Source of the DNA: Thermofilum sp.
GTDB taxonomy: Archaea > Thermoproteota > Thermoprotei > Thermofilales > Thermofilaceae
Reading direction: 5' to 3'
NCBI GenBank assembly: GCA_038741495.1
Contig: JAVYKX010000001.1
Span: 676,918 to 740,917 of the forward strand
Length of the DNA: 64,000 nt
Position 1 is the first letter of the stretch. Each line of letters begins with the position of its first letter. The notes under the pieces are model-generated. The model searched no databases. It had not been told where the DNA came from and saw nothing but the letters and a program-made list of their open reading frames with translations. This document shows positions 161-15,951 of this stretch, piece after piece. The position numbers and the translations under genes were made by a program.

Positions 161-372
161 GAGCGAAACCTCCGACCAAGCGCTAGAGAAGAGTCAAAGC
201 ACCTTAAAGCTCTACCGCGTGAAACTGTGATGAGCCACTCCTCAGGTTGCGTCAACCTTCACCCATGCTGCGAGGAGAGTAGTTGAGCGGCTCGCCCAGC
301 CAGCAGCAGCTCTCAGAGCACAGAGGCTTCGAGAACAGCGCTGCCGGCAGCCTCGCAGCCGGTCCAGGCGAG

Positions 373-780
373 TTAGGGGTTCTCGAGCAGAACCCTCCCA
401 CTGGTTGCGTCGAGGTGGGCGTAGAACCTGTTCAGAATGCCTCTGCCGAGGAGTAGCCGCCTGAGGAGCGGGTGGGCCCGCACCCTCACCAGCCCCAGGG
501 TTTCGCCGCAGAGGTAGACGCGAGCTAACGCTGTACTCAACCTGACTGGGAGGAAGCCACCGTGCAGCGCGTAGACGTCTTCGTCCACAGCCACGTAGTC
601 GAGCTCTAGCCTACTCCAGACGTCCTCCGTCACGAGGAGGGTGCCGTCAAAGCCTGTGTCGATGTAGAAGAGCTCCTCGGCGCTCCTCCCTGTCACAGGG
701 TTCTCCAGCTTAACTCTCACCGCCGGCGCAGGCGGCGACCGAGACCGGTCGTAAAACCCCTCACACTTCAAGACCCCCAC
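373..780 (-). CDS. Retropepsin-like (clan AA) aspartic protease-type protein
   Basis: 135 residues from a GTG start. The key feature is Asp-Thr-Gly at residues 41-43 (context FYIDTGFDGTLLV), the catalytic signature of single-domain retropepsin-like proteases. A second family hallmark, hydrophobic-Gly-Arg-x-hydrophobic-Leu-Asn (LLGRGILNRF), lies about 25 residues from the C-terminus. Such proteins would act as homodimers with one Asp per monomer. Its start overlaps the end of the upstream RHH-type gene by 20 nt, so the two are co-translated. No signal peptide is visible, so it should be cytoplasmic. Protease activity is inferred from the motif; the natural substrate is unknown, and the RHH partner is an obvious candidate. 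Confidence 0.75.
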   Translation of the reverse strand: MGVLKCEGFYDRSRSPPAPAVRVKLENPVTGRSAEELFYIDTGFDGTLLVTEDVWSRLELDYVAVDEDVYALHGGFLPVRLSTALARVYLCGETLGLVRVRAHPLLRRLLLGRGILNRFYAHLDATSGRVLLENP

Positions 781-1150
781 CCCCGACTTCGACGAACTCG
801 ACCCGCCTCGCCTCCAACGGTTTGATGAGGGAGTTCTTCAGGAGGCCGGCCTCGTACAGGCCCCGCAGCCTCTCCACAGCCTCTTCTAGCGTCTCGCAGC
901 GGAAGCTGACGGCCCCATCGTTAGCCACCACCAGGTACCCCTTGCCCCTCCCCGCGGCTAGCCGGCTGGCGGCGGATCTAAGAGGTTCGCGGGCGCCCCT
1001 CGCCTGCTCGAGGGGTGGAGGCGCTCTGAGCCACATCTCGAGGGCTTGGTTGACCGCCTGGGACACGGTTATCCCCAGCAGTGCCGCTCTAGCCTTAACC
1101 TCCGCGTAGAGTCTCTCGTCAACCCCCCTGACGAAAACCCCCTTAGCCAC
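761..1150 (-). CDS. RHH-like N-terminal domain protein paired with the aspartic protease-like gene
   Basis: 129 residues, GTG start. Residues 1-45 (FVRGVDERLYAEVKARAALL, then TVSQAVNQALEMWL) look like a ribbon-helix-helix DNA-binding domain of the VapB/CopG kind. A Pro/Ala/Arg-rich linker follows. A C-terminal block of about 55 residues (GKGYLVVANDGAVSF onward) recalls small archaeal DUF5678-type domains; that match is uncertain. The downstream retropepsin-like gene overlaps it by 20 nt. An AT-rich promoter-like stretch with TTAATATCTAGATATC lies about 20-35 nt upstream, close enough for a nearly leaderless transcript. The arrangement resembles a toxin-antitoxin operon with a protease in the second position. 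Confidence 0.65.
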   Translation of the reverse strand: MAKGVFVRGVDERLYAEVKARAALLGITVSQAVNQALEMWLRAPPPLEQARGAREPLRSAASRLAAGRGKGYLVVANDGAVSFRCETLEEAVERLRGLYEAGLLKNSLIKPLEARRVEFVEVGGGGLEV

Positions 1151-1546
1151 GAGAGGACACCTGATATCTAGATATTAAGCTTTCCGGAGCACTCTTCTAC
1201 TCGCCTGGTAGGCGCTGATACTGTACGTTCGCAGGGATTCAACCGTTTTCTACAGGCTGACGGCGAACCTCCCTGCCGTTGCTCTTCGCGCGCGAGCGGG
1301 CGGGGTGGAGGTTGAGGAGACAGCTTCCGGCGGGTGCTGATAACGGCTGTCTATCAGCAGAATTTGCTCAGACGGTTAAGGGCGTGGGCAGCCACGTAGC
1401 CGGGCTAGCACTCACTCTTGACCTGAGAGGGGCGAGCTGCTGCCTGCTGACCGGTGGGTGAGAGCCCTAGCGTCTCGAGCCTACGGGCTGGGCGGCGTGG
1501 GCACTCGTGGATTGGCTCTCGGAGAAGCAGGTGCGCGGGCGCGCAG
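1151..1546. other. Intergenic stretch without a recognisable gene
   Basis: This covers the space between the RHH-like gene start and the MNT gene end. Apart from the RHH-gene promoter at its left edge and a 7-bp inverted repeat (GCAGGGA and TCCCTGC arms, about 1226-1276), I see no coding signal or RNA gene. Short open frames here have no codon or motif support. Confidence 0.5.
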
Positions 1547-1882
1547 TCAGGCGATTCTGATCCAGTGCTTGGAGGCGTCCCTCAGCAGGGCGCTCTCCTG
1601 CAGCCTCTCCGCGAACTCCTCCGGCGTCAGCGGTATCGCCTCCACGAAAGGCTTTATCTGCGCTTTCCACTGTAGCTCGTTGATGAGGTCGAGCCTCTCG
1701 AGGAATTTCATCCCTCTGAAATCCTCGGAGACCACTACTAGGTCGACGTCGCTTGTCTTAAGCCAGGTGCCCTTAGCGTAGCTGCCGAAAAGGTACGCCT
1801 CTTTCACTCTAATCCTCTGCGAGAGCAGCTCCAGGAGGGTGCGCGCGGCTCTAAGCGCGGCTTCGAAGGAACTCTCTGACAA
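1547..1882 (-). CDS. MNT-type minimal nucleotidyltransferase (antitoxin of a HEPN/MNT pair)
   Basis: 111 residues. The polymerase-beta-like nucleotidyltransferase signature is complete: LFGSYAKG (Gly33-Ser34) followed by SDVDLVVV with metal-binding Asp45 and Asp47. In characterised HEPN/MNT modules the MNT protein neutralises the HEPN RNase, in some cases by adding AMP to it. The HEPN gene lies immediately upstream and overlaps by 32 nt, so both are made from one mRNA. The start is not certain because the overlap is long; a later start would trim the N-terminal helix only. Confidence 0.88.
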   Translation of the reverse strand: MSESSFEAALRAARTLLELLSQRIRVKEAYLFGSYAKGTWLKTSDVDLVVVSEDFRGMKFLERLDLINELQWKAQIKPFVEAIPLTPEEFAERLQESALLRDASKHWIRIA

Positions 1883-2285
1883 GCCTTATCACCTCGCCAG
1901 CCAAGCCGTACGCTCTCTGAGCTTCAACCTTATCCACTGACTCGCTGGGAAGCCCGCCCGCCGCGTCAGGGTACCGTGTCACCGTGTAGTACTTGTTCAG
2001 TATGAAAAGCTGTTCCTCCACCTCTCTAGGCAGCGAGAAGCCAGCTTCCTTGAGCAGTGTATACAGCTCAGTGACTGTGTGTATGCGTGGCGGCTCTTCC
2101 CTCCTCACCACGAAGAATAGCGCTTTCAGGGCCTTCTCGACCGCTTGCTGCGAGAAGAAAGCCGCGCGGAACCACCTCTCCCCCCTCAAGGCTATCTTCG
2201 CGTCCTCTAAGTCCTCCTCGGCGGCCTTAACCCAGAGCTCTACCTCTCTACGCGCTTGCACCGCTCTGTCAATAGCCCGCTTCAC
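1851..2285 (-). CDS. HEPN domain protein (toxin of a HEPN/MNT pair)
   Basis: 144 residues, GTG start, all-helical. The HEPN core is recognisable in the block around WFRAAFFSQQAVEKALKALF, then the PRIHTVTELYTLL helix, and the TRYPDAAGG turn typical of archaeal HEPN proteins paired with MNT enzymes. A strict R-X4-6-H catalytic motif is not clear, although His91 or its neighbour sits in the expected helix, so RNase activity is inferred from family and context. The MNT gene follows with a 32-nt overlap. An AT-rich GATATTAGG stretch lies directly upstream of the start. Confidence 0.85.
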   Translation of the reverse strand: MKRAIDRAVQARREVELWVKAAEEDLEDAKIALRGERWFRAAFFSQQAVEKALKALFFVVRREEPPRIHTVTELYTLLKEAGFSLPREVEEQLFILNKYYTVTRYPDAAGGLPSESVDKVEAQRAYGLAGEVIRLVREFLRSRA

Positions 2286-2765
2286 CTAATATCTTTTCCT
2301 AAAGCTGCTACCAAACTCCAGCTTCCCAGCACGCTTACAGCCACCTCGAGGGTTCCGGTAAAGCTATGCGAGCCGAGCAGGCCCTTTCCCGCTACCCCGT
2401 TACACCCGCACTTCCCCGGCGAGGTTATACTTCGGTCTCTGCAGCCCAGCCCGCCTCCCACCATGACGGCTGCCGCGGTGGAATGCCGCGAGAGGATTGA
2501 GTGGGTGTAACAGTCCTTTTGACAAGGGCGTTAGGCTTCATTCCACAGAAGAGTCTCCTGAAAAGGCTCAAGGAAGGAAGAGAGAAAGGAACCACTTAGC
2601 GAGAATCAATGTACCTGGTAAACTTTCACAAACGGGGGGTACCGAATCCGCTATCCAGGAACCTAGCGGCTGAGAGGAACCGGGTACGCACCGCGCCTTC
2701 AAGACCGCTCACTAGACAGGGTTGAGGGTTTGTTTCCCAGGCTCGAGCTTTCTCGCTAGAAAACA
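2286..2765. other. Intergenic stretch without a recognisable gene
   Basis: About 480 bp between the divergently transcribed HEPN and HAD genes. Short ORFs here lack family motifs. The right end leads into the promoter and operator of the sugar-phosphorylase operon. I see no RNA gene or repeat. Confidence 0.5.
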
Positions 2766-2794
2766 TTTTATGATAGAACACTACTGGTGAGTAG
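2766..2794 (+). promoter_or_regulatory. Promoter and palindromic operator (CTACT-N4-AGTAG) of the GH65 operon
   Basis: A TATA-like TTTTATGAT at 2766-2774 is followed at 2781-2794 by CTACTGGTGAGTAG, a perfect 5-bp-arm palindrome. It falls at the expected transcription start. TrmB of Thermococcus/Pyrococcus binds TACT-N3-AGTA at trehalose/maltose promoters (established); the core here is TACT-N4-AGTA. The same arms and spacer length occur at 12699-12712 in the promoter of the nearby ABC transporter operon. A TrmB-family gene (5614-6672) lies at the end of this operon, so autoregulation in response to sugar is the natural inference. Confidence 0.7.
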
Positions 2795-3476
2795 CATGAT
2801 AAAAATGATTGCCCTGATCTGGGACTTCGACGGCGTTGTAGTATTCACCCCTCATGAAAAAGCCTGGAGGATAACGGCACACCGCTTCGGGATACTAAAC
2901 CTTACGAGCGAGTTTTATCACCGCTACGTCTCGGGCAGGCCGCGCTACGAGGGAGCTAGGATCATTTTAAGCCTGCTCGGGGGGTACGCGGGGCCAGAGC
3001 TGGAGCAGCTTGTAGAGCTGTTTGCGAGCGAGAAGAATCGCGTCTTCAACCTTCTCGTGGAGAGCGGAGAGGTGGAGGTGAACAGACCCGCTATCGAGTT
3101 CATATTGAGGACGCGGAGGGGTAATCGTCCTGCTTTTAAGCATGTTCTGGCTTCCGCTTCCCGTAATGCTGTGAGGCTGGCTACTAGGCTGGAGTACCTT
3201 GGCCGTCCGCTCTCCAGCTTCTTTGACGCAGACGTGAGCGGCTCCGGTGCTACGAAGCGCGAGATATTCGAAAAAGCTATGAAGGCGGTAAGGGAGGCCG
3301 ACTGCTTCATTGCGATCGATGATGCACCTTCGGGTGTTAGAACTGCTGCAGAGCTTGGGATTATCCCGGTCGGGTATAGCGATAGGGGCCTCGAAGACCA
3401 CGGAGCTAGAATGATCATTGAGAAGTTTGAGGGGTTGGAGCCCGAGGTTCTAGTGGAACTATGCAGGTCGAGGTGA
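2787..3476 (+). CDS. HAD-family phosphatase / beta-phosphoglucomutase-like enzyme
   Basis: 229 residues. HAD motif I is DFDGVV (nucleophile Asp13, acid/base Asp15), motif II the Ser in LASAS, motif III a Lys near ATKREIF, and motif IV IDDAPSG. A helical cap follows motif I, as in beta-phosphoglucomutase. The stop overlaps the start of the GH65 gene by 16 nt. GH65 phosphorolysis of trehalose or maltose yields beta-glucose 1-phosphate, and a beta-phosphoglucomutase would convert it to glucose 6-phosphate, so this pairing is strong functional evidence; a plain sugar-phosphate phosphatase is the alternative. The GTG at 2787 lies inside the operator, so ATG at 2796 or 2805 may be the real start. 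Confidence 0.82.
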   Translation: MSSMIKMIALIWDFDGVVVFTPHEKAWRITAHRFGILNLTSEFYHRYVSGRPRYEGARIILSLLGGYAGPELEQLVELFASEKNRVFNLLVESGEVEVNRPAIEFILRTRRGNRPAFKHVLASASRNAVRLATRLEYLGRPLSSFFDADVSGSGATKREIFEKAMKAVREADCFIAIDDAPSGVRTAAELGIIPVGYSDRGLEDHGARMIIEKFEGLEPEVLVELCRSR

Positions 3477-5587
3477 AACCTTACAGGCTGTGCGTGAAGG
3501 GGTTCAGCAGACGGGACGAGCCTTGGGTAGGTACTCTACTCACTCTCTCGAACGGGCGCATAGCTGTGCGAGGTGAGCTTGAGCTCGAGCCCTTCGATAC
3601 TGGAACACTTCACGCCGGCTACTACCTCGATGTCCCGCTATGGAGGCGAGAGCTCGCTCAGCTGCCGAGAATCAACGGAGTCTACGTGCTGTGCTCTGGG
3701 GAGCCTGCACGGCCGGAGAAAGTGGAGAGAGAGCTCGACCTTCGGGAGGGTCTGTTAAGGGTTAGAGCTTCGCTGTCGTGCACTGCGGGCAACCTGCGCT
3801 ACACTAGCACGAGTGCTGCTCACAGGAGGCTGAAGAGCCTATACATGCAGAGAGTGGAGCTGGAGGGGTGCAGTGGCGAACTCCTAGTCACGCTACCGAT
3901 CGAGCTAGCCTCCAATCCCTTCGTGGCAGGCGCCTCTGTAAGGCACTTCGATATAGCTGGTTTCAAGTTTGACGGAGCTTGGCTTAGCGTGCTCCTCGAG
4001 CCTAAGCGCGGTGGCAAGCCGATTGCGCTGACGAGCTTCTTGAGGAGCACTGGCTGCTCCGAGTTAATTCCCGTGAGCTCAGCTGGCGCGCTCGGCTTTC
4101 TTGTCACAGGCTGCAGCAGTCGCGTAACGCTCGAGAGGTACACGTTCGTTGGCGAGACGCCGCAGCGCGAAGAGCCTCTCTGGGACTCCTTGTTACGGTC
4201 TCACAAAGCTGCGTGGCGCGAGCTGTGGGAGAAGATAGGGCTTGAGGTAGAAGGTGAGGATCGAATCGCGGGGGCGATAACGTTCTACACCTACCACTTA
4301 CTTCAGCTTATCGACGAGGACTCAGACTCTCTCATGATACCCAGCAGGGGTCTTCACGGATTCGGGTATCGCGGGCACATCTTCTGGGACACGGATCTCT
4401 ACCTAGCTCTATTCCTTTCGGCGCTATACCCGGAGGCGGCGAAGAAGGTTCTCAAGTTTAGGTGCAAGACACTTGAAGCGGCCCGAGCTTACGCGGCTCA
4501 AAGCGGGCACAAAGGAGCGAGGTACCCCTGGGAGTCTGTCGATAGTGGTTTCGAGGCCACACCGAGGCACGGGTTACTGCTGAAGGAGAACAGCTGCCAG
4601 TGCGTCGACATCCTGACCGGCGAGAAGGAGATCCACATAACCGCTGACGTGGCGTTTGCTGTTGACCTCTACTACAAGCTAACTGGGGATACGCACTTCA
4701 TGGCTGAGTGCGGCTTACACATCCTGGTGGAGAGTGCCCGCTTCTGGGCAAGCCGAGTGGCCTGGGACCCAGGTAAATCCGCCTATGTGATCAGGGATGT
4801 GATCGGGCCGGACGAGTACCACGTGGGCGTTGATAACAACTACTTCACAAACGTGATGGCGAAGCTCAACTTGGAGAGAGCTGCACACTACGTTGAGGAA
4901 GCCCTATCCTCGAAGAGCAGCCTCCTGCGAGCAGTTGCGGAAAATCTCGGAGTGACGAGGCAAGAAGTTGAGAAGTGGAAGGAGATCGCCGGAAGGATCT
5001 TCGAGGGTAGGAGGGAGGGGCTGGTGGTTGAGCAGTTTGAGGGTTACTTCGACCTTGAGGAAGGGCAGCTCAACTCCTCCTATGCTCCAGTGCGGGTACC
5101 CGTTGAAGAGTTAGAGAAGCTATCTCAGCTCAAGGTAATCAAGCAGGCAGACGTCGTGCTCGCCCTACTCATCCAAGATCTCGTGAGCGGGGTTCCAAAG
5201 GAAGTCCTGGAAGCAAACTACCGCTACTACCTGCCGAGGACAACGCACGAGTCATCCCTATCACTGCCCATATACGCTGCGGTGGCGATCTCTCTGAAGG
5301 ACGAGAACGCGGGGGGCTTGTTCTCGAAGGTGCTGGACACAGATCTCGGGAATCTGTACGGCAACACGGATGACGGTTTCCACGTGGGAGCTGCGGGCGG
5401 GCTGTGGTATGCAATCCTCTACGGCTTGCTAGGGTTAAGGCTCAGTCATGAGGAGCTGCGCTTTAAGCCCTCCTGTGTTGACGGTATCAGAAGGTTGTCC
5501 GTAAACATTAGCTACAGGGGCGCAAGGCTGAAGGTAGACCTCCGCTGCGATGGTGAACCGCTTCTCCACAAGAGCTTTTTAACCTAG
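3461..5587 (+). CDS. Glycoside hydrolase family 65 phosphorylase (trehalose/maltose phosphorylase type)
   Basis: 708 residues, slightly shorter than typical 750-780-residue GH65 enzymes. After an N-terminal beta-sandwich domain, the (alpha/alpha)6 barrel shows GHIFWDTDLYLALF, the catalytic-acid block VIGPDEYHVGVDNNYF (general acid Glu452), KQADVVLALL near residue 562 (phosphate pocket in characterised members) and THESSLSLPIYA. The enzyme cleaves an alpha-linked glucose disaccharide with inorganic phosphate; the exact disaccharide (trehalose, maltose, kojibiose) cannot be read from sequence. No signal peptide, hence intracellular. It overlaps the HAD gene and precedes the TrmB gene by 26 nt, forming one operon. 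Confidence 0.9.
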   Translation: MQVEVKPYRLCVKGFSRRDEPWVGTLLTLSNGRIAVRGELELEPFDTGTLHAGYYLDVPLWRRELAQLPRINGVYVLCSGEPARPEKVERELDLREGLLRVRASLSCTAGNLRYTSTSAAHRRLKSLYMQRVELEGCSGELLVTLPIELASNPFVAGASVRHFDIAGFKFDGAWLSVLLEPKRGGKPIALTSFLRSTGCSELIPVSSAGALGFLVTGCSSRVTLERYTFVGETPQREEPLWDSLLRSHKAAWRELWEKIGLEVEGEDRIAGAITFYTYHLLQLIDEDSDSLMIPSRGLHGFGYRGHIFWDTDLYLALFLSALYPEAAKKVLKFRCKTLEAARAYAAQSGHKGARYPWESVDSGFEATPRHGLLLKENSCQCVDILTGEKEIHITADVAFAVDLYYKLTGDTHFMAECGLHILVESARFWASRVAWDPGKSAYVIRDVIGPDEYHVGVDNNYFTNVMAKLNLERAAHYVEEALSSKSSLLRAVAENLGVTRQEVEKWKEIAGRIFEGRREGLVVEQFEGYFDLEEGQLNSSYAPVRVPVEELEKLSQLKVIKQADVVLALLIQDLVSGVPKEVLEANYRYYLPRTTHESSLSLPIYAAVAISLKDENAGGLFSKVLDTDLGNLYGNTDDGFHVGAAGGLWYAILYGLLGLRLSHEELRFKPSCVDGIRRLSVNISYRGARLKVDLRCDGEPLLHKSFLT

Positions 5588-5613
5588 GCACTCGATGTGA
5601 GGCCGGGGGATGG

Positions 5614-6672
5614 ATGGCAGAGGAAGCATTGCTCTCCAGGTTAATGCTGCTGGGCTTTACGAAGTACGAGGCTAGAGCGTATGTTACGCTCCTCAAGCAC
5701 GGCTCTCTGACTTCGTCGGAGATTATTAAGCTAGCTCGGATCCCGCAACCGAGGATCTACGACATCATGGATAGCCTCGTTTCAAAGGGGTTCGTGAGGA
5801 AGAGCAAGGGAAAACCCATCCGCTACTCTCTCGTCGACCCGAAGTCCGCGTTCAAGGGGTTTATGGAGGCGGAGATGGCGCGGATCGCTACTGTCGGGGA
5901 CGAGGTCTTGAAGTTCCACCGCGAGAGCTCTTCTCTGAGGTCAGTTACGGGGGAGAGCGTGTGGGTTTCACATGGCTACGCAGCTTACATGGCAGCGCTC
6001 AGCGAGGTTTTTCAGACAACGGAGGACGAGCTCCTCGCGGCGCTCTACTCTAGTACTCTGAACACCGTTTTGAGGTCAGACGAGTTCGTAGCGAAGCTCA
6101 AGAAGCTCTCTTCGTGCTTTGTCCTTTACGACCTGGAGCCGCAGCACCCCCTACCTGTGGAGGAGGTTCTCTACAGGCCCACCTATGGGCCTACCCTTTT
6201 TATCTCTGACTTGACGCGTGCTTGGCTTATCACCGGCATTCAAAACGGCAGGGAGCCTCTCATATACTACATTGAGGACATCGAGATCACGAGCCTCATT
6301 ACAATGTACTTCTTCGAGGTGCTGAGGCGCTGGTCCAAGCCTGTGCAGAACAAGCTTGCAGCTGAAGTGATGGAGCAGAGGTTCCGGAGTATAGTGAGAG
6401 CTGTTGATATGATCCGAGGCTTCGAGAAGCGGGGGCTCAAAGCCTACGTACAAGCAGAGGGGATCTGGTTGAGAACCGGGGAGCAGGGAGCCGTGGAGGG
6501 AGTAGCGGTTGAGACAAGGAGGGACGAGCTGAAAGGAATTACAAGCATCGTCGTAGAGCTCGCCAACGGAAACCGTGCGTCGATCGGAGGTCTCGGAGCA
6601 CGGTACGAAGACTTTGCAGCTTTAAAAATCAGGGTAAGGGCAGCACCATACAGCGCTCTTTCGAGCGGGTGA
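5614..6672 (+). CDS. TrmB-family sugar-responsive transcriptional regulator
   Basis: 352 residues. The N-terminus (about 1-75: LLGFTKYEARAYVTLLKHG, then PQPRIYDIMDSLVSKGFV) is the winged HTH of TrmB proteins. A helical linker follows to about residue 115, then an effector domain ending in an EGIWLRTG...EGVAVE beta-rich block like the sugar-binding TrmB C-terminus. A strong GGGGGATGG stretch precedes the ATG. As third gene of the HAD-GH65 operon it likely binds a sugar and represses the palindromic sites at 2781-2794 and 12699-12712; this link is inference. Confidence 0.9.
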   Translation: MAEEALLSRLMLLGFTKYEARAYVTLLKHGSLTSSEIIKLARIPQPRIYDIMDSLVSKGFVRKSKGKPIRYSLVDPKSAFKGFMEAEMARIATVGDEVLKFHRESSSLRSVTGESVWVSHGYAAYMAALSEVFQTTEDELLAALYSSTLNTVLRSDEFVAKLKKLSSCFVLYDLEPQHPLPVEEVLYRPTYGPTLFISDLTRAWLITGIQNGREPLIYYIEDIEITSLITMYFFEVLRRWSKPVQNKLAAEVMEQRFRSIVRAVDMIRGFEKRGLKAYVQAEGIWLRTGEQGAVEGVAVETRRDELKGITSIVVELANGNRASIGGLGARYEDFAALKIRVRAAPYSALSSG

Positions 6673-6758
6673 GCAGAATTCTCCCCAGCCCTCGCAGTCG
6701 TGCACACGCTTATTTTCTCCGTGCAGCTGGGGAGAGCGGTTCGAGCGGGCCGGGCAAA

Positions 6759-6959
6759 TTATGGCGCGCGACGCCTCACTTCTCTCCTGACCACTACGAC
6801 TACCCCGGCTATGACGAGCGCCGAGATGAGCAGTAAGAGGAGAGAAACCACTATCACCTCCTCCGAGGGGTTCGAGAGCAGCGTTATCAGCGAGGTAAGC
6901 AGCCCAGCGACCCCCAGAGTGAAGAAAATCCTGCCCTGAACCGGGTTCACGCAGCTCAC
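6759..6959 (-). CDS. Small two-helix membrane protein at the end of the ABC operon
   Basis: 66 residues from GTG at 6957-6959, which overlaps the upstream ATPase stop as GTGA, a sign of translational coupling. Two hydrophobic stretches (about 10-28 and 35-58) are separated by NPSEE and followed by a positively charged tail RREVRRR, suggesting a two-TM inner-membrane protein with cytoplasmic C-terminus. I do not recognise a family. It may be an accessory subunit of the transporter, but only position supports that. Confidence 0.6.
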   Translation of the reverse strand: MSCVNPVQGRIFFTLGVAGLLTSLITLLSNPSEEVIVVSLLLLLISALVIAGVVVVVRREVRRRAP

Positions 6960-7957
6960 CAGTACTGTTCAACTTCGCCAGGGAAGTGGCAGGCTATCTT
7001 ACGCCCAGCATACTCGACGCTGGGCGGGCGCTCCCTGAAGCATTTCTCCCTAGCCCAGGGGCAGCGGGCTGCGAAGGGGCAGCCTGCGCTGGGTGTACCT
7101 CTGTACTCGGCATGCTTTACGAATAAATCACGCATGGATTTCAGCTTAGGTTCGAAAGCTGAGCCGAAGACAATGAGGGCGAGCGAGTAAGGGTGAAGAG
7201 GTTTCCTCATGACCTCCTCTGCTACTCCCTCCTCTACGACGAGCCCCCGGAGCATGACGAGTAGCTTCGAGGTTGGCGCTAAGTACCTTATAGTCCCAAG
7301 CTCGTGTGTTATGTAGAGTAGGGAGACGCCTGACGTCGCGTTGAGATCTTTCAGGAGGTCGAGGACGGATACCTTCATCGAGGGGTCAATCATAGAGACG
7401 GGTTCATCAGCTACCATTAGCTCGGGGTCTGGGATGAGAGCTCTAGCGATGTTGAGCCGCTGCCTCATCCCCCCGCTGAGGTGGTGGGGGTACTTATTGA
7501 GGAAGTACTCGGGCGGTGTGAGCCCCACCCGCTCCAGTAAATCTAACACGAGCCTCTTAACCTCGCTCTCCGGGATCCCCTTTCGGTGTGTTCTTATCAC
7601 GACTGCAAGTGTCTCGTAGACGCTTTTCACGGGGTTAAGCGAAGAGTAAGGATCCTGGTAGACGTACTGAAGCCTGATCTTTATCCTCTTCAGATCCCGC
7701 TCGGGGATCCTCTCCGTGTCCAAGCCCTTGTACAGGACTGAGCCGCTCGTAGGGCGCTGCAGGAGCGCGGCAACTCGGCCCAGCGTGGTTTTCCCGCTGC
7801 CGCTCTCTCCAACTACGCTGACTATCTCACCAGGGGTTATGTCAAGGGAAACATCGCGCACTGCGCTCACAGTGCCGCCCCTCCCTTTGAACACGACGTT
7901 AATATTCCTCAGGCTGAGCAGAGCGGGTTGCATACCCCTCACCCGTAGAGATGGCAA
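6956..7957 (-). CDS. Dipeptide/oligopeptide-family ABC transporter ATPase (DppF/OppF type)
   Basis: 333 residues from TTG at 7957. Walker A GESGSGKTTLG, Q-loop YQDPYSSLNPV, signature LSGGMRQRLNIARAL and Walker B LMVADEPVSM are all intact. The C-terminal tail has the Cys pattern GCPFAARCPWAREKC, typical of this ATPase subfamily. A GTG at 7942 overlaps the previous stop as GTGA, and ATG at 7933 has a GGTGAGGGG in front, so translation probably begins at one of these. It pairs with the DppD-type ATPase to power the two permeases. In Sulfolobus such systems import di- and oligosaccharides (established for cellobiose and maltose). Confidence 0.92.
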   Translation of the reverse strand: MPSLRVRGMQPALLSLRNINVVFKGRGGTVSAVRDVSLDITPGEIVSVVGESGSGKTTLGRVAALLQRPTSGSVLYKGLDTERIPERDLKRIKIRLQYVYQDPYSSLNPVKSVYETLAVVIRTHRKGIPESEVKRLVLDLLERVGLTPPEYFLNKYPHHLSGGMRQRLNIARALIPDPELMVADEPVSMIDPSMKVSVLDLLKDLNATSGVSLLYITHELGTIRYLAPTSKLLVMLRGLVVEEGVAEEVMRKPLHPYSLALIVFGSAFEPKLKSMRDLFVKHAEYRGTPSAGCPFAARCPWAREKCFRERPPSVEYAGRKIACHFPGEVEQYW

Positions 7958-8910
7958 GCTACCTTCCTCCCTCTTTCAGTTTCGCGGAGCTCGGGTCTTA
8001 CGTCCCTGCACTTGCTAGCTGCATGGGGGCAGCGGTCTACGAACGGGCAGCCTTTAGGCTTTAAGTGCAGAAGCAAGCTGGGAGGAGAGCCGGGGATAGA
8101 CCTTACCTTGCTGACATCGATATCTACTGTCATGAGGCTCTGCATCAGCCCCTGCGTGTAGGGGTGTAGGGGCTCCTTCACGACATCACTGGTGCCTCCC
8201 TCCTCGACGAGAACGCCCGCGTACAGTATAGCTAGCCTATCGGCAAGCTCAAAGAGACTTTCAATGTCGTGAGTCACGTAGACCATTGTCGTCTTCCCCG
8301 ATCTCTTCAGCTCAAGGAGGTAGCGGAGCACCTGCTTTTGTGTGAGCAGGTCAAGGGCGGAGACAGGCTCATCGAGAAACACGAGCCGTGGGTCGAGGAG
8401 CAGGGCCAGAGCTATCACGACTCTCTGCTTCATCCCCCCGCTGAGCTGGTGGGGGTACATGCCGAGAACCTGCTCGTCCAGACCCACCCTACTGAGCAGC
8501 TCGACTGCTCTCTCCCTGACCTCCTCCTCGCTCACATCAGGGTAGTGCGACCTGAAAGTCTCGAGGAAGTGGTCCCAAACTCTGATGAAGGGGTTGAGAG
8601 AGTTCTGAGCGGCCTGGAAAACCTGAGCGATAAGCCTCCCCCTTATCCTGCGGATCTCCTTCTCCTCCATTTCCAGCAGGTTTTTCCCCTCGAAAAGCAC
8701 CCGCCCCTTAACCTTCATGTTATAGGGGCCCACGCGGGTGACTGCTTGGATCAGCGTAGTTTTCCCGCTACCACTCTCACCTACAAGCCCGAGGACCTCG
8801 TTCTCGAGCACGGCGAGCGTCACGTGGTCCGCAGCCCTGATCAGCCCCTCCCTGACGACGTAGTCTGCTACTATGTCGTCCGCTCTCAAGATTTCCCTGC
8901 CGCTACTCAT
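7939..8910 (-). CDS. Dipeptide/oligopeptide-family ABC transporter ATPase (DppD/OppD type)
   Basis: 323 residues, ATG start, overlapping the upstream permease by 8 nt. Walker A GESGSGKTTLI, Q-loop FQAAQNSLNPF, signature LSGGMKQRVVIALAL, Walker B LVFLDEPVSALD and the switch His in YVTHDIES are present. The C-terminal oligopeptide-transporter extension carries GCPFVDRCPHAASKC. It forms the ATPase heterodimer with the next gene. Confidence 0.92.
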   Translation of the reverse strand: MSSGREILRADDIVADYVVREGLIRAADHVTLAVLENEVLGLVGESGSGKTTLIQAVTRVGPYNMKVKGRVLFEGKNLLEMEEKEIRRIRGRLIAQVFQAAQNSLNPFIRVWDHFLETFRSHYPDVSEEEVRERAVELLSRVGLDEQVLGMYPHQLSGGMKQRVVIALALLLDPRLVFLDEPVSALDLLTQKQVLRYLLELKRSGKTTMVYVTHDIESLFELADRLAILYAGVLVEEGGTSDVVKEPLHPYTQGLMQSLMTVDIDVSKVRSIPGSPPSLLLHLKPKGCPFVDRCPHAASKCRDVRPELRETERGRKVACHLYG

Positions 8911-9778
8911 ACTCCTTCAACCTCGGGATGAGCACCTCCTCTATGTACCTCGAGAATTCGATCAGCGACCACTGCAGCAGGACGATAGCCGCTAGCGGGG
9001 AGAACCAGTGCCAGAAGCCGCCTGGAATGAAGATCGACCTCGCCTGGAAGTACGCGATGTTGAGCATTGTACCCCAGTTGTACGGCGACCAGGGGGTTAC
9101 TCCGAGGAATGCTAAGCCTACGATGACGAAGATACCTCCTCTGAACATTCTAACGAACTCCACGAGCATGTAGGGCGATACCAGAGGGAGGATCTCCCCC
9201 AGGATGATCTGCGCATCCCCGACGCCCAGGCCCTTCAGCGCCTCGACAAAAGGCATTTCCCTTACCTGCAGGACTCTGGCCCTCATGCCGCGGGCATAGC
9301 CCATCCACATCGTCAGGGCGGATATAGCCCCGATGGAGAACACGTCCATCCTCCTAAACGTAGCGATGAGGATTAGGATTAGCGGGAGCGAGGGGATAAG
9401 GATGACTGTGTCCGTTAGTGTCATCAGAACTCTGTCGACGCCACCCCCAGCATAACCTGCGTACAGTCCCACTAGAGTTCCTATTGTGATGGCGATTGAG
9501 GCGACGAAGAGCCCCATTCTGAAGACATCGCTCGCCCCAAGCAACAGCTGCATCAGTGTATCCCTACCCATGTGGTCAGTACCTAACGGGTGCTCCAGGG
9601 AGGGCGGCAGGTAGCGCTTCTCCGGGCTGATCTCAATGCTCCTTGGATCTATGAGGAGGGGGGCGAGCAGGGCTGTGAGCGTGAAGAAGCAGAGGATAGC
9701 CGTGGAGGCTAGCGCCAGCTTGTTAACAGCTAACCCTTTTAGGAAGCTACTCAGCAGCTCGCGCTGTTGCTCTCTCAC
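8903..9778 (-). CDS. Dipeptide-family ABC transporter permease (DppC type)
   Basis: 291 residues, GTG start that overlaps the DppB-type stop by 4 nt. An N-terminal TM segment, the conserved hydrophilic HPLGTDHMGRDTL loop of DppC proteins and several further TM helices are visible. The cytoplasmic EAA loop, EALKGLGVGDAQIILGEILP, contacts the ATPases. It should form the translocation channel with the DppB-type subunit. Confidence 0.92.
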   Translation of the reverse strand: MREQQRELLSSFLKGLAVNKLALASTAILCFFTLTALLAPLLIDPRSIEISPEKRYLPPSLEHPLGTDHMGRDTLMQLLLGASDVFRMGLFVASIAITIGTLVGLYAGYAGGGVDRVLMTLTDTVILIPSLPLILILIATFRRMDVFSIGAISALTMWMGYARGMRARVLQVREMPFVEALKGLGVGDAQIILGEILPLVSPYMLVEFVRMFRGGIFVIVGLAFLGVTPWSPYNWGTMLNIAYFQARSIFIPGGFWHWFSPLAAIVLLQWSLIEFSRYIEEVLIPRLKEYE

Positions 9779-10776
9779 GGATACCTCACCCTTGGGTCGA
9801 GGATCGGGTACACGATATCCGCTACGAGGTTTGCCAGTGAAAGCGTGATTGCCTGAGCGAGGAAAAGCCCCTGTAGGAGCCCGTAGTCGTGGTTGTTGAA
9901 ACCGACGACGAAGTGATACCCCATGCCAGGGTACGCGAAGATAGTCTCAATCAGCAAGCTCCCGCCTACGATAAGGCCGAAAGCGATAGCAAGGCCGGCT
10001 ACCATGGGAAGCAGGCCACTCCGCATCACGTAGGTCTTAACTATTCTCCTCTCCTCCACACCCCTCGCCTGCGCGAAAAGCACGAAGTCCTCGCCAAGAG
10101 AGGAGACGGCTACGCTGCGCATCGTAAAGTACCAGCCCGCAGCAGCTGGAATCGCGTAAGAGAGCACGGGTAGGATAGCTCTTCTTGCTACCCCGCCGAT
10201 ATACTCTAGCGTAAAGCCCGGACTGACGCCGGGCTCCGTGGCTCCCTGGGCTGGCAGAACCCCCAAGCCTACAGCGAAGACGAAAATTAGCAGTAAAGCG
10301 ATGAGGAAGGAGGGGGTCGAGTCGATTATCGTGAACGCGGTGATGAGGATAGTGTCTGGGAGCTTTTTCCTCTGAAGTGCGCTAAAAGAGCCGAGGAAAG
10401 CGCCCAGCGTGAAGCCTATGATTATGCCCGGGATGCCGACGAGAAGGGTCCAGGGGAGACTCTCAACGATAACTCGGTTGACTGAAGTCCCGTAGGTGAA
10501 CGAGTAGCCGAGGTTTAGCCTGAGAAGCATGTTCAAGTACTCGAAATATTTCTCAGCGAGAGTCTTGTTGCCAGCCGCTAGCGCGTAGGTAACTGATGCT
10601 ATCTTGTAGGCTTGCTCGTAGGTGTAGCCGTGCATCCACATCAGCTCCCTTGCTATTCTCTCGATGGGGTCGCCGGGCATGTTGTTAACCAGGATGAACG
10701 TGATGTGCATTGATAGCAGGATTGTCAGAGCCGCATAGAGAAGCCCTTTAACAGCATGCCTAACAAGCCACCTCAT
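9775..10776 (-). CDS. Dipeptide-family ABC transporter permease (DppB type)
   Basis: 333 residues. It begins with a TM segment followed by the family motif VNNMPGDPIERIA, has a long extracytoplasmic loop, then further TM helices. The EAA loop (ARGVEERRIVKTYVMRSGLLP) is present before the final helices. It starts 73 nt after the binding-protein gene, the only sizeable gap in the operon. The T-run in that gap suggests lower expression of the permease genes than of the binding protein. Confidence 0.92.
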   Translation of the reverse strand: MRWLVRHAVKGLLYAALTILLSMHITFILVNNMPGDPIERIARELMWMHGYTYEQAYKIASVTYALAAGNKTLAEKYFEYLNMLLRLNLGYSFTYGTSVNRVIVESLPWTLLVGIPGIIIGFTLGAFLGSFSALQRKKLPDTILITAFTIIDSTPSFLIALLLIFVFAVGLGVLPAQGATEPGVSPGFTLEYIGGVARRAILPVLSYAIPAAAGWYFTMRSVAVSSLGEDFVLFAQARGVEERRIVKTYVMRSGLLPMVAGLAIAFGLIVGGSLLIETIFAYPGMGYHFVVGFNNHDYGLLQGLFLAQAITLSLANLVADIVYPILDPRVRYP

Positions 10777-10804
10777 TAAAATTCACCCTATACATAGTGG
10801 TTAG

Positions 10805-10840
10805 GGAGAATGAGGTAAAAAATGACTTGAGTTTAGTTCT
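10805..10840 (-). terminator. T-run between binding protein and permease genes
   Basis: The minus strand reads CATTTTTTACC (A6 on plus at 10817-10822) just after the binding-protein stop. U-runs serve as archaeal terminators. Partial termination here would give excess binding protein over permease, a usual stoichiometry. Strength is unknown. Confidence 0.45.
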
Positions 10841-10848
10841 CACCCCAC

Positions 10849-12681
10849 CTAGCCAGTAGGCCGTATCAGGCCGAGCCTCATCAGGAGGATGATAATCTTA
10901 GGCTCGCCGCCGCCTATCCAGGCTGAGTACACGGGGTGGTAACCTTTCGGCCAGCCCGTCGCCCGTATTCCGTCCACGTGCAGCCACATCATCTTCTTCT
11001 GGAAGTATGCGATCCCCGGCAGCCACTCGTGAGTGATGTAAGCGAGCGTCTCGATGATTCTTCTCTTCTCCTCCGGGTCCTTCGTGGCGAAGTACCGATC
11101 TACGAGCTCCTTCGTGTTGTACGTCTTACCCTCGATCGTGATGACGGGCCACGGGTCGTAGCCCTGCCAGCTCTGCACTGTGGAGCCGGGCCCGTAGATC
11201 CTTATGTAAGCGTAGATAGGGTCGAAAGTGTAAGCTCCGAGCGGGATGCCTCTCGGCTCAGCGAGGATGTCGAACTCTCCCTTTCCGTATATCTCGCCCA
11301 TCAGACCTAGAGGCACGGGATCCATCTTCACAATAAACCCGAACTTCTCCAGCTGCTCTTTGAGAACCTCGGCCGGCATCATCTTCTCCTTATCGGGCGC
11401 GTAGGGCCTCAGCCAGATCTCGAAGGGCTTTCCGTCCGGCCCGAGCCACTTCCCGTCAGGTCCTCTCGTGAACCCAAGCTCTTTCAGCAGCCTCTCGGCC
11501 TCGGCCGGGTTAGGCCTATAAGGCTTCAGAGTAGCGAGGAACTCTTTCCTGAAAACCATGTCCTCGAAGCCTCTGGGAATCCCAGTCTGGTACCTGGCGG
11601 GCAGCGCAAAGCCGGGGAACGTGGCCTCGGTTATCTTCTCAACGTCTATTACGTACGCGAGGGCTTTTCTGAAGCGGACATCGTTGTACGGCCACTTCCT
11701 GAAGTTGAAGAGGAAGCCAAACTCTGCTGGATCGTAGCTGATGCCGACGCCGAGGAAAGCCCCTTTCGCCTTGAGGGTCGTGTTTATCGCCTCCAGCATC
11801 GCAGGGGGTGTGGGAACTTGCCGGAAGTCTGTCTCACCGGCGGACATCGCGGTCCAGATCACTTCTTGCGCGATGAGCCTAGGTGTCAGAACCAGCCTGT
11901 CGAACGGGAATTTGTCTGCTGCGTAGTGTTTTGCGTATTTCTCGAGGAGAATGTAATCTGCAGTTACTTCCTTCAGCACGTAGGGCCCAGTTCCGATGAC
12001 CTTACCCGGGTACAGGGGGGCAGCTACCTTGTCGTAGAGTGCTTTCAGCTCAGCTTCGTATGGCTGCCCCCTACGCCGCAGGTCCACGATCCTCTTTGCG
12101 TCGCTCAAGTACTGGCCGAAAAGGTGATGAGGTGCGCATTGGTACTCCTGGAGAAACTCCCTAATTTCGCTCTCTGCAAGCCCCTTCTTTGTCAGCCTAA
12201 CAGTGTAGTCGTCCACCACCTCCAAGTTAACGTCAAGCAGCCACCCGTAAATAGCCTGCCTCAGCACCAGCAAGGTTTCAACATCTTTAGCTGTGAACGC
12301 TGTTCCATCATGCCACGTAACTCCCCTCCTCAGGCGCACGAGGAGGGCATCGGGTTGCCTCTCCCAGCTCTCGAAAAGCGCGGGTATCCACTCATCTGTA
12401 TCGATGATCACATACGCACCGGGCTCGTAGATGTACCACCTGATCTCCGCAAGCCCCTCCCATGTTCCGAACGGGTTCCCGTGGAAACCAGGGGGTGGAG
12501 CCCAGAACGCGGGGATCCTCAGCTCCTTCGGCTTAGGTGGTGGAGAGGTAGGTGGTGGAGGTGGTGGCGCCTGAGGAGCGAGAAAGAGTGCGGCAACAAG
12601 GGCGATGATGATCAAGGCGGCGACAGCTCCGAAGATGATGAAACGCTTCCCAAGGATTTTCCCCTTTGCCGCTTGGGTCAC
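10849..12681 (-). CDS. Dipeptide-family ABC transporter substrate-binding protein (SBP_bac_5), membrane anchored
   Basis: 610 residues from GTG. A TM anchor spans about residues 14-32 and is followed by a Pro-rich spacer (PPPPPPTSPPPKPKE), then a large periplasmic-type binding fold with family blocks such as RLRRGVTWHDGTAFTAKDV and NDVRFRKALAYVID. Sequence alone does not separate peptide from sugar substrates. The shared operator with the GH65 operon argues for an alpha-glucoside disaccharide. It is first in the operon, with a TATA box about 30-40 bp upstream. Confidence 0.9.
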   Translation of the reverse strand: MTQAAKGKILGKRFIIFGAVAALIIIALVAALFLAPQAPPPPPPTSPPPKPKELRIPAFWAPPPGFHGNPFGTWEGLAEIRWYIYEPGAYVIIDTDEWIPALFESWERQPDALLVRLRRGVTWHDGTAFTAKDVETLLVLRQAIYGWLLDVNLEVVDDYTVRLTKKGLAESEIREFLQEYQCAPHHLFGQYLSDAKRIVDLRRRGQPYEAELKALYDKVAAPLYPGKVIGTGPYVLKEVTADYILLEKYAKHYAADKFPFDRLVLTPRLIAQEVIWTAMSAGETDFRQVPTPPAMLEAINTTLKAKGAFLGVGISYDPAEFGFLFNFRKWPYNDVRFRKALAYVIDVEKITEATFPGFALPARYQTGIPRGFEDMVFRKEFLATLKPYRPNPAEAERLLKELGFTRGPDGKWLGPDGKPFEIWLRPYAPDKEKMMPAEVLKEQLEKFGFIVKMDPVPLGLMGEIYGKGEFDILAEPRGIPLGAYTFDPIYAYIRIYGPGSTVQSWQGYDPWPVITIEGKTYNTKELVDRYFATKDPEEKRRIIETLAYITHEWLPGIAYFQKKMMWLHVDGIRATGWPKGYHPVYSAWIGGGEPKIIILLMRLGLIRPTG

Positions 12682-12698
12682 GTCGCTTCAGTATTATC

Positions 12699-12741
12699 CT
12701 ACTAGCAAGTAGTATATAAGCGTTGCCTCATATAAGCTTTC
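12699..12741 (-). promoter_or_regulatory. TATA box and CTACT-N4-AGTAG operator of the ABC transporter operon
   Basis: On the minus strand GCTTATATACT (12711-12721) is a clear TATA box. CTACTAGCAAGTAG at 12699-12712 overlaps its downstream edge and has the same arms and spacing as the palindrome at 2781-2794 in the GH65 promoter. A repressor bound here would block TBP or RNA polymerase. A second TATA-like AGCTTATATGA lies at about 12729-12739. Confidence 0.75.
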
Positions 12742-13320
12742 CGCTCTGCTTATATGGGCTGCTATGGAAAAACATTGCTAAGTATTCCGGGTAAAAGAAA
12801 TCAGCGTGCTACGCTAGCTAGAACTGATAATCAGCCATGTGGATGGCGGGAGACTGGCGAGCAGGAAGTTACGCAGAGCAGGCGGTGCAGCCTCATCTTA
12901 ATCTCGGTTCTGCTGGAGAAAGCAGGTGACTACCCTAGAGTACACTCGATAATAACTCCCCGCCTGGATCCTCGCCAGGCTCTCTGAGTGCAGGAAGTTT
13001 GCGATTTCTTGAAGAGGACGGGCTGAGGTCGACCTCCTGAAATACTGTGAGTGCGCGGCTGAAAAGCAGGTGCACCACGCTGCTAACAAGCTCTTTCCTC
13101 TCCGGGCACCCTCTAGCTCTTCGAGCACATCTTCGTAGAGTACCAGGAATGCGGACGAGAGTGTGGGAGAACCTTATACCTGCTTCAACGTGCTGAGAAT
13201 AAATCCCAGCTGGGCTGCAGCGGGAAAACCTGCTAGTAGGTGGGCTCCCGTGAAAGTCTAGAGTGTAAGAGTTCACCCTGCAGAAGCAGCCTTAAGAGAA
13301 AAAGGGGGAAATCTGCCAGT
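12742..13320. other. Intergenic stretch containing a possible decayed gene
   Basis: About 580 bp between the ABC operon promoter and the subtilase stop. The only structure I see is the probable minus-strand gene remnant at about 12935-13190, annotated separately. Plus-strand ORFs look random. Confidence 0.5.
12935..13190 (-). pseudogene. Possible decayed protein gene of unknown family
   Basis: On the minus strand a TATA-like GTATAAGG near 13175 is followed by protein-like segments in alternating frames: AFLVLYEDVLEELEGARRGK in one, ELVSSVVHLLFSRALTVFQE in another, and EIANFLHSESLARIQ back in the first. Two frameshifts would join them into one helical protein. I do not recognise the family. 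Confidence 0.3.
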
Positions 13321-14574
13321 TCAGGGCTGCGAGAGCGCGTACTGGACTGCGCTGTACGCGTCGACGAGCCCGTACCCGTAGAGCTCATCGTAGCCCTGAG
13401 GGCCGAGGTCTATGGCCGTGGTGGTGAGGACCAGCTTCATGGCGTCCGGGCTTAACCTGCTCTTGCCGGCGGCGAGCCTCAGAGCCTGCACTAGCGCAGC
13501 GACGCCTGACACGTGCGGGCAGGCCATCGACGTGCCGCTCATGTAGCCGTACTTATTCTTTGGCAGAGTCGAGTATATGCTGACGCCCGGGGCCACAACG
13601 TCAGGGTTCCTGTTGCTCCAGCTGGGGACGTTGTAGCTGCTGTCTATCGCGCCCACCGCGATCACCTCGGGGTAGGCTGCCGGGTAGCTAGGCGTCGAGG
13701 CCCCCTCGTTACCTGCTGCTGCCACCAGTACGGCGCCGTAGCTGTACGCGTAGCGGACTGCCTCGTAGAGCGTGTCGCTGTGGGGCCCTCCCAGCGACAT
13801 GCTTATGACGTCAGCGTCGTCACTCGTGCCCGCTATCCCGTCGGGCCCCTTAACCGCCTCGACTATCCCCCTCGCCACGTCGGACAAGTAGCCACTTCCA
13901 CTAGCTGAAAGCACTCTGATCGCGTAAAGAGTCACCTTGGGGGCAACGCCCGCTACTCCAGCCCCGTTAAGCCTAGCCGCCACTATCCCGGCGACGTGGG
14001 TTCCGTGGCCGTTCTGGTCGCTGCACTTCTTTAAGTCAGTCCCCCTGTAGAAGATAGCGCCATCAGACAGCGAAACTACGCACCAGGTGACTGCGCCGGA
14101 GAGGTCGCGGTGCGTGTAGTCTATCCCTGTATCGACAACCGCGACTTGGACTTGAACGTGGTAACCGTACGCAGCGTCCCCATAGCTGGAGGAGTACGCG
14201 TTCCACACCTCGGGGGCGCGGACGTACTCGATGTTCCACTGCACCTCTCCCAGGATCTTCACAATCTTATCCTCCTCTACGCGCACCACGCCCTTTACGA
14301 GCGACTTCAACTTACCGGCGTGCTCCCTCGTGGTGCGCACCACGAGGACGCTAAGCTCCGGGATCTCGCCGACGATCTCGCCGTACTTCGAGAGAGGCTC
14401 ACGGTAGTCCTCCACGCTCCCCTCAACCTTCACCATAACCCTGATGGGCTCAGAGGGGAGCGCCTGAGACTCGGGAGCCGCAGCCCACAGCAAAACTGTT
14501 ACAACCATCATAGCCGCGATGCAAGCTGCTAGGGCAGCCCTGCCGACAGCTCTAAGGGCTTTTTCCCTGCTCAT
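13321..14574 (-). CDS. Secreted subtilisin-like serine protease (family S8)
   Basis: 417 residues with a signal peptide (hydrophobic core about 14-31). Residues 43-108 form an inhibitor_I9-like propeptide (IRVMVKVEGSVEDYREPL). The catalytic domain has the full triad: Asp148 in VAVVDTGIDYTH, His190 in NGHGTHVAGIVAA and Ser349 in SGTSMACPHVSG, plus oxyanion Asn289 in AAAGNEGAS. No C-terminal anchor is seen, so it is probably released. It would degrade external proteins for uptake. A TATA-like CTTTATAATAAAA lies near 14595-14610 and the gene appears monocistronic. Confidence 0.95.
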   Translation of the reverse strand: MSREKALRAVGRAALAACIAAMMVVTVLLWAAAPESQALPSEPIRVMVKVEGSVEDYREPLSKYGEIVGEIPELSVLVVRTTREHAGKLKSLVKGVVRVEEDKIVKILGEVQWNIEYVRAPEVWNAYSSSYGDAAYGYHVQVQVAVVDTGIDYTHRDLSGAVTWCVVSLSDGAIFYRGTDLKKCSDQNGHGTHVAGIVAARLNGAGVAGVAPKVTLYAIRVLSASGSGYLSDVARGIVEAVKGPDGIAGTSDDADVISMSLGGPHSDTLYEAVRYAYSYGAVLVAAAGNEGASTPSYPAAYPEVIAVGAIDSSYNVPSWSNRNPDVVAPGVSIYSTLPKNKYGYMSGTSMACPHVSGVAALVQALRLAAGKSRLSPDAMKLVLTTTAIDLGPQGYDELYGYGLVDAYSAVQYALSQP

Positions 14575-14709
14575 CGCTGCCTGCTAGCACTTAATTTTAT
14601 TATAAAGATTTCGCTAGGCAAAACCGCTAAGCGAGCACCTAGGAGTTATTCGCGCGTTCGGGGATCAAGCTTCCGGACCCTGAAGTGCTCTCTTGGCCGG
14701 GCTAGCGCG

Positions 14710-15924: not shown

Positions 15925-15925
15925 G

Positions 15926-15951
15926 ATAAGTATAACCCCGGTTATACTTAT
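15926..15951 (-). promoter_or_regulatory. 26-bp perfect inverted repeat over the promoter/start of the ATPase gene
   Basis: ATAAGTATAACC at 15926-15937 and GGTTATACTTAT at 15940-15951 are exact 12-bp inverted arms around a CC spacer. The right arm contains a TATA-like TTAATAAGTATAA on the minus strand, and the repeat ends one base before the GTG start codon, so it spans the expected TATA-to-transcription-start interval of a leaderless mRNA. A dimeric repressor site, perhaps bound by the gene product itself, is the simplest reading. Confidence 0.65.

Follow-up and report, generated by a model that had tools for sequence, protein, structure and literature searches.

What does it mean when one palindrome recurs at two promoters flanking the gene of a sugar-sensing regulator? 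The question arises in a stretch of 64,000 nucleotides from Thermofilum sp. (the window), where CTACT-N4-AGTAG occurs both at the promoter of an operon encoding a HAD hydrolase, a GH65 phosphorylase and a TrmB regulator and at that of the neighbouring operon for an Opp-type importer. We argue, from comparison of sequences across relatives, that the two palindromes are probably operators of the TrmB encoded at 5614-6672, coupling the GH65 operon to the importer. We also consider a bolder proposal, which could equally prove right or wrong: that paralogous TrmBs are insulated from each other by a 1-bp difference in operator spacing, with each regulon keeping to one spacing, and that the regulon with the four-base spacer (N4) swapped a CUT1 importer for an Opp-type one while retaining the operator. 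Throughout, own-I denotes the HAD-GH65-TrmB operon of the window, own-II a paralogous operon in the same genome, and L and G codes the compared loci and genomes.

The pattern CTACT-N4-AGTAG has exactly two matches within the window, CTACTGGTGAGTAG at 2781-2794 and CTACTAGCAAGTAG at 12699-12712, where dinucleotide shuffles lead us to expect 0.07 and two matches were reached in 1 of 100 shuffles. A previous, sequence-only reading of this DNA had reported both palindromes and placed them in promoters, and on both counts it holds: the copies are exact and have no companions in the window, and each sits in a promoter. Extended to the longer motif introduced below, the first site reaches the HAD start codon, with the A of ATG (2796) as its last position, and the TATA-like element TTTATGAT ends 4 bases before it. 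The second has two bases in common with the TATA box CTTATATA of the transporter operon, upstream of the binding-protein start at 12681. The HAD, GH65 and TrmB genes lie on the plus strand, and the convergent minus-strand Opp-type operon runs from 12681 down to 6956 (Table 1). Scanning the window for three-base (N3) or N4 sites that match at least 12 of 14 half-site positions yielded no third site.

Because the operator is kept at the same two promoters in relatives, it is conservation, and not the number of copies of the 14-mer, that decides how the palindrome should be read. A search with the GH65 protein matched 4 of 17 genomes at family level, namely the own genome, which has a further copy at C1:527405, and the congeners G012, G013 and G016; a match was absent from three of six congeners in the same search. 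At class level 7 of 81 genomes matched, with G019 as a new locus and with distant GH65s in G026 and G027 on short contigs where no TrmB was seen, and at phylum level 7 of 398 matched at 1e-60 (G383 was taken as L107 and G392 as L104, each counted once). Searching with a TrmB alignment gave 80 named loci of 567 relatives, and the HAD/GH65/TrmB loci are found among L100-L107 and L118. L102 was taken as G013 (L080) and L137 as G019 (L180), both remaining within the 80 loci; note that L106, L107 and L118 are close relatives of one another.

We scored these loci for TACYACT-Nx-AGTRGTA, a motif of 14 half-site positions, at spacers from 0 to 10. Two classes emerged: spacer 3 in own-II, G012, G013, G016 and G019, and spacer 4 in the window, L100, L101 (HAD promoter only), L103 (MalE promoter only), L104, L105, L106, L107 and L118. 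Wherever both promoters were readable (12 of 12 loci), the HAD and transporter promoters share one class, and in ten of these loci the class spacer outscores all others at both. All 24 promoters score at least 12 of 14, ten of them at N3 and 14 at N4, none at both; of 155 further upstream regions in these loci, none scores as high. Weaker scores three bases off the class spacer stem from the ACTACT repeat. An unselected scan of the 80 loci (1,109,402 bases, at least 13 of 14) returned 12 sites at N3 and 13 at N4, and between 0 and 3 at each of the other spacers from 0 to 10; with 60 scrambled half-sites as control, N3 averaged 0.70 sites (at most 3) and N4 1.03 (at most 4). Most of the real sites fall between genes: ten of 12 for N3, of which four lie at a HAD or MalE promoter of a GH65 locus, and 12 of 13 for N4, of which 11 lie at such a promoter. 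The 12 loci with paired operators support the earlier suggestion of a lineage variant of the TrmB site, conserved upstream of orthologous operons, and comparison with relatives likewise favours the idea that one TrmB-linked operator would serve both the GH65 operon and the transporter operon.

Several observations nevertheless count against this reading. As regards the comparison itself, the sites were already known when the stretches for scoring the 24 promoters were chosen, and some of the loci counted had earlier served to derive the motif. The MalE promoter of L104 scores 13 at N1 versus 12 at N4, that of L105 scores 13 at both, and the HAD promoter of L101 scores the same at N4 and N7. 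Within the window pair, the own-I HAD promoter, with its gap of 4, is the poorer TATA fit. The TrmBs with N3 sites form one clade that also includes L101, which has an N4 site, and genome G392 contains 36 N3 sites at no more than one mismatch (control 0), the motif being too common there. Other points come from the bare 14-mer across the own genome. Four of its eight copies lie inside genes (L003, L004, L013 and L018), and the two remaining copies outside the window lie at an archaeal histone promoter (L001, C1:17074) and about 550 bases ahead of a cas6-type gene (L014, C1:813114), the latter also covered by a doubtful antisense open reading frame. These two may reflect either chance or wider regulation. 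Finally, when the 14-mer half-sites are counted over all spacers from 0 to 12, the backward control is commoner than the real pattern, 30 versus 18, although N4 makes up eight of the 18 sites and the next spacers have three each.

Eight copies in a genome of 1.616 Mb compare with about 1.8 scaled from the window shuffle value, and the claim that the 14-mer should occur about once per megabase was therefore overstated. Nor did its hits concentrate at sugar-gene promoters, as had been anticipated, given the four intragenic copies; we reject a genome-wide regulon defined by the bare 14-mer. The still shorter TACTN3AGTA is not enriched in the own genome (11 versus 19 in the control), and TACTN4AGTA is found 23 times versus three, mostly within open frames. 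Four of these 23 sites lie at C1:17,000-30,000 and were entertained as a second regulon, an idea we dropped since the region holds the histone gene and, by eye, ATP synthase and housekeeping genes but no sugar genes. Might the window pair, then, be a coincidence or the site of another regulator? The copy number, the intragenic half of the copies and the presence of four TrmB-like proteins in the own genome that match the query could be taken that way. Against it stand the recurrence of the operator pair at both promoters in relatives and the location of the TrmB gene within the operon it would control, and we regard this explanation as very improbable.

Having weighed coincidence, we return to TrmB as the presumed reader of both sites. 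The window protein matches the winged-helix domain PF01978 at 78.4 bits (cut-off 25.6) and the sugar-binding domain PF11495 at 87.9 bits (cut-off 22.2); the reported sugar-site G and E align, and other pocket residues, compared by eye, differ. The three-base spacer of the known TACT-N3-AGTA site at the trehalose/maltose (TM) operon is lacking at the window sites, which have four, and present at those of own-II, the second HAD-GH65-TrmB operon of the genome, where N3 operators occupy the HAD and MalE promoters and TrmB is encoded at L078:12536-13543. Allowing up to two mismatches to the longer motif, the own genome has eight N4 sites (backward control 2), and the three intergenic ones are both window sites and C1:378603 (L186). 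The corresponding N3 search gave 18 sites (control 24), of which 15 could be classified and three were without a locus; the only two intergenic sites among the 15 are the own-II HAD and MalE promoters, which are among the four best. At no more than one mismatch, N3 sites number four in the own genome (control 4), three in G012 (0), three in G013 (1), three in G016 (4) and three in G019 (0), and the HAD and MalE promoters account for two of them in each. G011 has four (control 1), G014 and G383 none. At L248 (G011:C1:96861), a perfect N3 operator at 1501-1517 follows a TATA box and precedes a start resembling that of the G013 HAD gene; it is perhaps the scar of a lost operon, G011 being without a GH65 match.

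Does the spacing matter to the protein? On a TrmB tree of 19 rows, the window protein is sister to that of L100 (N4) with support of 100/99, and spacer class requires at least two changes versus a shuffle mean of 4.1 (values as low arose in 5 of 500 shuffles for N4 and 10 of 500 for N3). Among the alignment columns in which five N3 and eight N4 GH65-linked TrmBs have no letter in common are window residues 40-42, which directly precede the recognition helix and read [KR]-S-E in N3 proteins and Ala or Gly followed by R, K, H or G in N4 proteins (H-G-G in L101). The Pfu TrmB, with its known N3 site, has K-S-G at these positions. Ser41-Glu42 as a general cause of N3 was rejected: L111, L113 and L114 (K-A-G) and L109 (L-T-G) also have N3-like sites, and the pair remains a candidate only. 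If spacing is read by the protein, N4 would keep the own-I repressor off the N3 operators of own-II, and the reverse.

One can equally imagine that the sites are real TrmB operators but that spacing insulates nothing, own-I and own-II TrmB each binding N3 and N4 alike while the spacer is simply inherited with the locus. Half-sites are identical in the two classes, and the few changes on the tree are what inheritance alone would give. Moreover, half-site centres are 10 bp apart in N3 and 11 bp apart in N4, both near one helical turn, so that the extra base should leave the dimer on the same face while displacing one half-site by some 3.4 angstrom and 34 degrees. Set against this, every locus holds one class at both promoters, and N3 promoters score only 9-10 at N4 and N4 promoters 7-9 at N3, values also seen in control regions. 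We take inheritance without insulation to be a serious possibility, though we lean away from it. The other two TrmB-like genes of the own genome (near C1:785,522 and C1:314,685) offered no further instance of either class, no N3 or N4 operator appearing among the best six palindromes of each of five stretches. About 7.6 kb from a third TrmB gene, TACT-N5-AGTA lies upstream of a binding-protein-like open reading frame (L082, about 1471-1483; C1:777970), possibly a third spacing, or chance.

Operator position bears on how TrmB would act. By a simple pattern finder, the best TATA match and the operator share the last two bases of the TATA element in 19 of 26 GH65-locus promoters; the remaining seven vary, own-I HAD among them. 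The same position relative to the TATA box is described for P. furiosus TrmB at malE in a 2014 review (PMC4158304). An operator that starts within the TATA box and extends downstream should block initiation, which speaks for repression and against TrmB acting from the window sites as an activator, or as activator and repressor both. The same review (PMC4158304) lists TrmBL1, Tgr and a Halobacterium protein as able both to repress and to activate, from sites before the B recognition element (BRE) and TATA box or at the transcription start, and in L111, L113 and L114 an N3-like palindrome next to TrmB precedes a TATA-like element. Activation at the window sites nevertheless strikes us as improbable.

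If repression at both promoters is the likelier arrangement, what does the second operator control? All five subunits expected of an Opp-type (family 5) importer are present in the window: a family 5 binding protein, two permeases and two ATPases with the oligo_HPY domain. This sets it apart from the 11 loci with a readable transporter (own-II, G012, G013, G016, G019, L100 and L103-L107), in all of which MalE, F, G and K of the CUT1 type match; five of the MalE binding proteins were run against Pfam and gave PF01547/PF13416. L118 contains part of MalE, L101 ends ahead of the transporter, and L105 has an OppC-like fragment at the contig end. We suppose that the CUT1 importer bearing operator 2 in relatives would have been replaced by an Opp-type importer in the lineage of the window. 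G+C content is 0.55-0.57 in window positions 4001-16000 versus 0.59-0.62 in other 4-kb blocks; the small dip would fit the acquisition of an island but does not show it. Desulfurococcales loci L113 (2952) and L114 (7204) have TrmB adjoining a full Opp-type importer, and L111 (11357) an incomplete one, which together with the palindromes mentioned above would make a second, differently placed coupling of TrmB to Opp.

Sharing an operator does not oblige the importer to carry the substrate of GH65; its cargo could be a peptide or another sugar. The window binding protein belongs to a diverse family, is at most 34% identical to its nearest relatives in 81 class genomes and has no match at 1e-8 in the loci of the GH65-TrmB relatives. 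Its best solved relatives by sequence are Thermotoga-type binders of sugars or oligopeptides, such as 4pfu, named mannoside-binding, and a structure model built from three sequences was too poor to use (mean predicted local distance difference test score, pLDDT, 49.5). The neighbourhoods of six relatives are mixed: one adjoins a GH130-type gene, two lie in clusters of the N-acetylmuramic acid (MurNAc) type, one is 8 kb from a GH35 gene (L239), and near two (L240 and L241) no sugar gene was noticed. Yet in the 11 relatives above it is a CUT1 sugar importer that has this operator, and GH65, being intracellular in type, would need an importer for its substrate. We therefore think a different cargo unlikely and prefer an importer that feeds GH65.

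Three of these neighbourhoods deserve a brief description. At L236 (G025, 298-4223) the GH130-type protein adjoins the closest relative found (34%) of the window binding protein. L238 (G035, 2386-15829) combines, according to Pfam, AnmK, NamZ, a SIS-domain MurQ-like protein and a BadF-type kinase with an Opp-type importer, and L237 (G006, 1070-9237) has a similar MurNAc-type cluster beside its Opp-type importer, the SIS protein assigned by Pfam and the rest by look. Both genomes are archaeal and belong to the order and family of the window. Archaea are not known to have murein, and our guess is that these clusters scavenge pieces of bacterial wall.

Which sugar might be involved? Trehalose or maltose had been put forward on sequence alone, but the W-E-T residues of kojibiose phosphorylases are present in every one of the 12 GH65 proteins that we compared, leaving that guess unsupported: W391, E392 and T417 (CsKP numbering) correspond to W357, E358 and T386 in the window enzyme. 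Conservation of W-E-T in kojibiose phosphorylases, EEAPxx as their motif, and different motifs in enzymes acting on maltose, trehalose, oligo-alpha-1,3-glucosides and trehalose-6-phosphate are reported in PMC8537180. At the EEAPxx positions 64, 392, 394, 402, 416 and 585 the window enzyme has E, E, V, P, L and E, three of the four fixed letters; P at 402 is found in 12 of 12 proteins and E at 64 in all 11 that are readable. The V at 394, in place of the A of the motif, detracts from the assignment; among the 12 proteins this position is A in six, V in three (window included), S in two and C in one. On the choice between phosphorylase and hydrolase, the KQAD and H-x-S-S stretches, which we take to be phosphate binders, are common to all 12 and to 3wiq, a kojibiose phosphorylase and the best solved relative of the window enzyme. 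Since W-E-T, P402 and 3wiq as best relative favour it over trehalose or maltose, kojibiose or a related alpha-1,2-glucoside is the better guess for the substrate.

The HAD protein scores 49.4 bits (5e-13) against the NCBIfam beta-phosphoglucomutase model TIGR01990, below the cut-off of 189.4, and is for this reason named only HAD, beta-phosphoglucomutase-like. Elsewhere in the window, at 20800-23028, an open reading frame of 742 residues is GH3 beta-glucosidase-like by look and has neither an N3 nor an N4 operator.

Table 1. Predicted regulatory elements and genes of the locus, in window coordinates.
Feature	Position	Strand	Basis
TATA-like element TTTATGAT, HAD-GH65-TrmB promoter	2767..2774	+	pattern match, sequence
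Operator 1 (predicted), CACTACT-GGTG-AGTAGCA, N4 class, 12/14 half-site positions	2779..2796	+	motif comparison
HAD hydrolase, beta-phosphoglucomutase-like	2796..3476	+	PF00702 above cut-off
GH65 phosphorylase, kojibiose phosphorylase-like	3461..5587	+	PF03632/PF03636/PF03633; best solved relative 3wiq; W-E-T, E64, P402, phosphorylase-type residues
TrmB regulator of own-I with a DNA-binding and a sugar-binding domain; predicted to bind both operators	5614..6672	+	PF01978, PF11495 above cut-off
Opp-type ATPase, OppF-like	6956..7957	-	PF00005, PF08352
Opp-type ATPase, OppD-like	7939..8910	-	PF00005, PF08352
Opp-type permease, OppC-like	8903..9778	-	PF00528, PF12911
Opp-type permease, OppB-like	9775..10776	-	PF00528; best NCBIfam models Opp2B, Opp4B below cut-off
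Family 5 solute-binding protein of Opp-type importer	10849..12681	-	PF00496
Operator 2 (predicted), TACTACT-TGCT-AGTAGGA on minus strand, N4 class, 13/14 half-site positions	12697..12714	-	motif comparison
TATA box CTTATATA of transporter operon	12713..12720	-	pattern match, sequence

How might these parts work together? Imagine the cell without the sugar: a TrmB dimer would occupy both operators and block access of TBP/TFB or of RNA polymerase. Once an alpha-glucobiose had been imported and had bound the C-terminal domain of TrmB, the repressor would be released; kojibiose, or some other alpha-1,2-glucoside, is the most likely such sugar. The Opp-type transporter would bring the sugar in, and GH65 would split it by phosphorolysis, yielding glucose and beta-glucose-1-phosphate, the latter of which the HAD enzyme would convert to glucose-6-phosphate.

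This pathway is likely the known kojibiose route. An archaeal version, a kojibiose catabolic pathway in Pyrococcus sp. ST04, has reportedly been described (Jung 2014, by its title), and by that title it resembles the kojibiose phosphorylase route we propose. The E. coli ycj cluster (PMC6599011) has, like the window, a kojibiose phosphorylase (YcjT) and a beta-phosphoglucomutase (YcjU) under one local repressor, YcjW, which kojibiose releases in vitro; unlike the window, the repressor is of the LacI type, the transporter is another one and the host is a bacterium. As for regulation, the comparison supports well the view that the system would work like TrmB at the TM operon of P. furiosus and T. 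litoralis, with a regulator from the same family and an operator that is a spacer variant. The review (PMC4158304) describes a two-domain TrmB, TACT/AGTA cores, an operator at the TATA box of the importer and sugar-released repression, the last of which we presume for the window. The window departs from that system in its spacer of 4 (versus TACT-N3-AGTA) and longer half-site TACYACT, in a second operator on the phosphorylase operon that contains the TrmB gene, and in its Opp-type rather than CUT1 importer and kojibiose-type enzyme. Spacing differences among TrmB proteins were already known, the same review giving TACT-N7-8-GAGTA for a Halobacterium site. Opp/Dpp importers, the family that all five window subunits match, are used for sugars elsewhere; unlike those known cases, the system here would sit under a TrmB operator with a GH65 phosphorylase.

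A Thermofilum paper (PMC6965361) notes that each of the four Thermofilum genomes compared in it has GH65 and that a TrmB lies beside alpha-mannan genes, and the 2014 review (PMC4158304) states that the function of Thermofilum TrmB proteins (written Thermophilum there) is not known. We found no description of an N4 TrmB operator or of the paired arrangement in the open-licence PMC literature, which does not show its absence from print. With the operators proposed here, Thermofilum TrmB proteins would gain a concrete two-promoter regulon and an inducer that can be tested, and sugar transport is predicted for a system annotated as a peptide importer. Own-I and own-II, finally, would represent a naturally occurring case of two paralogous repressors whose operators share half-sites yet differ in spacing, one suited to studying how archaeal repressors may avoid cross-talk.

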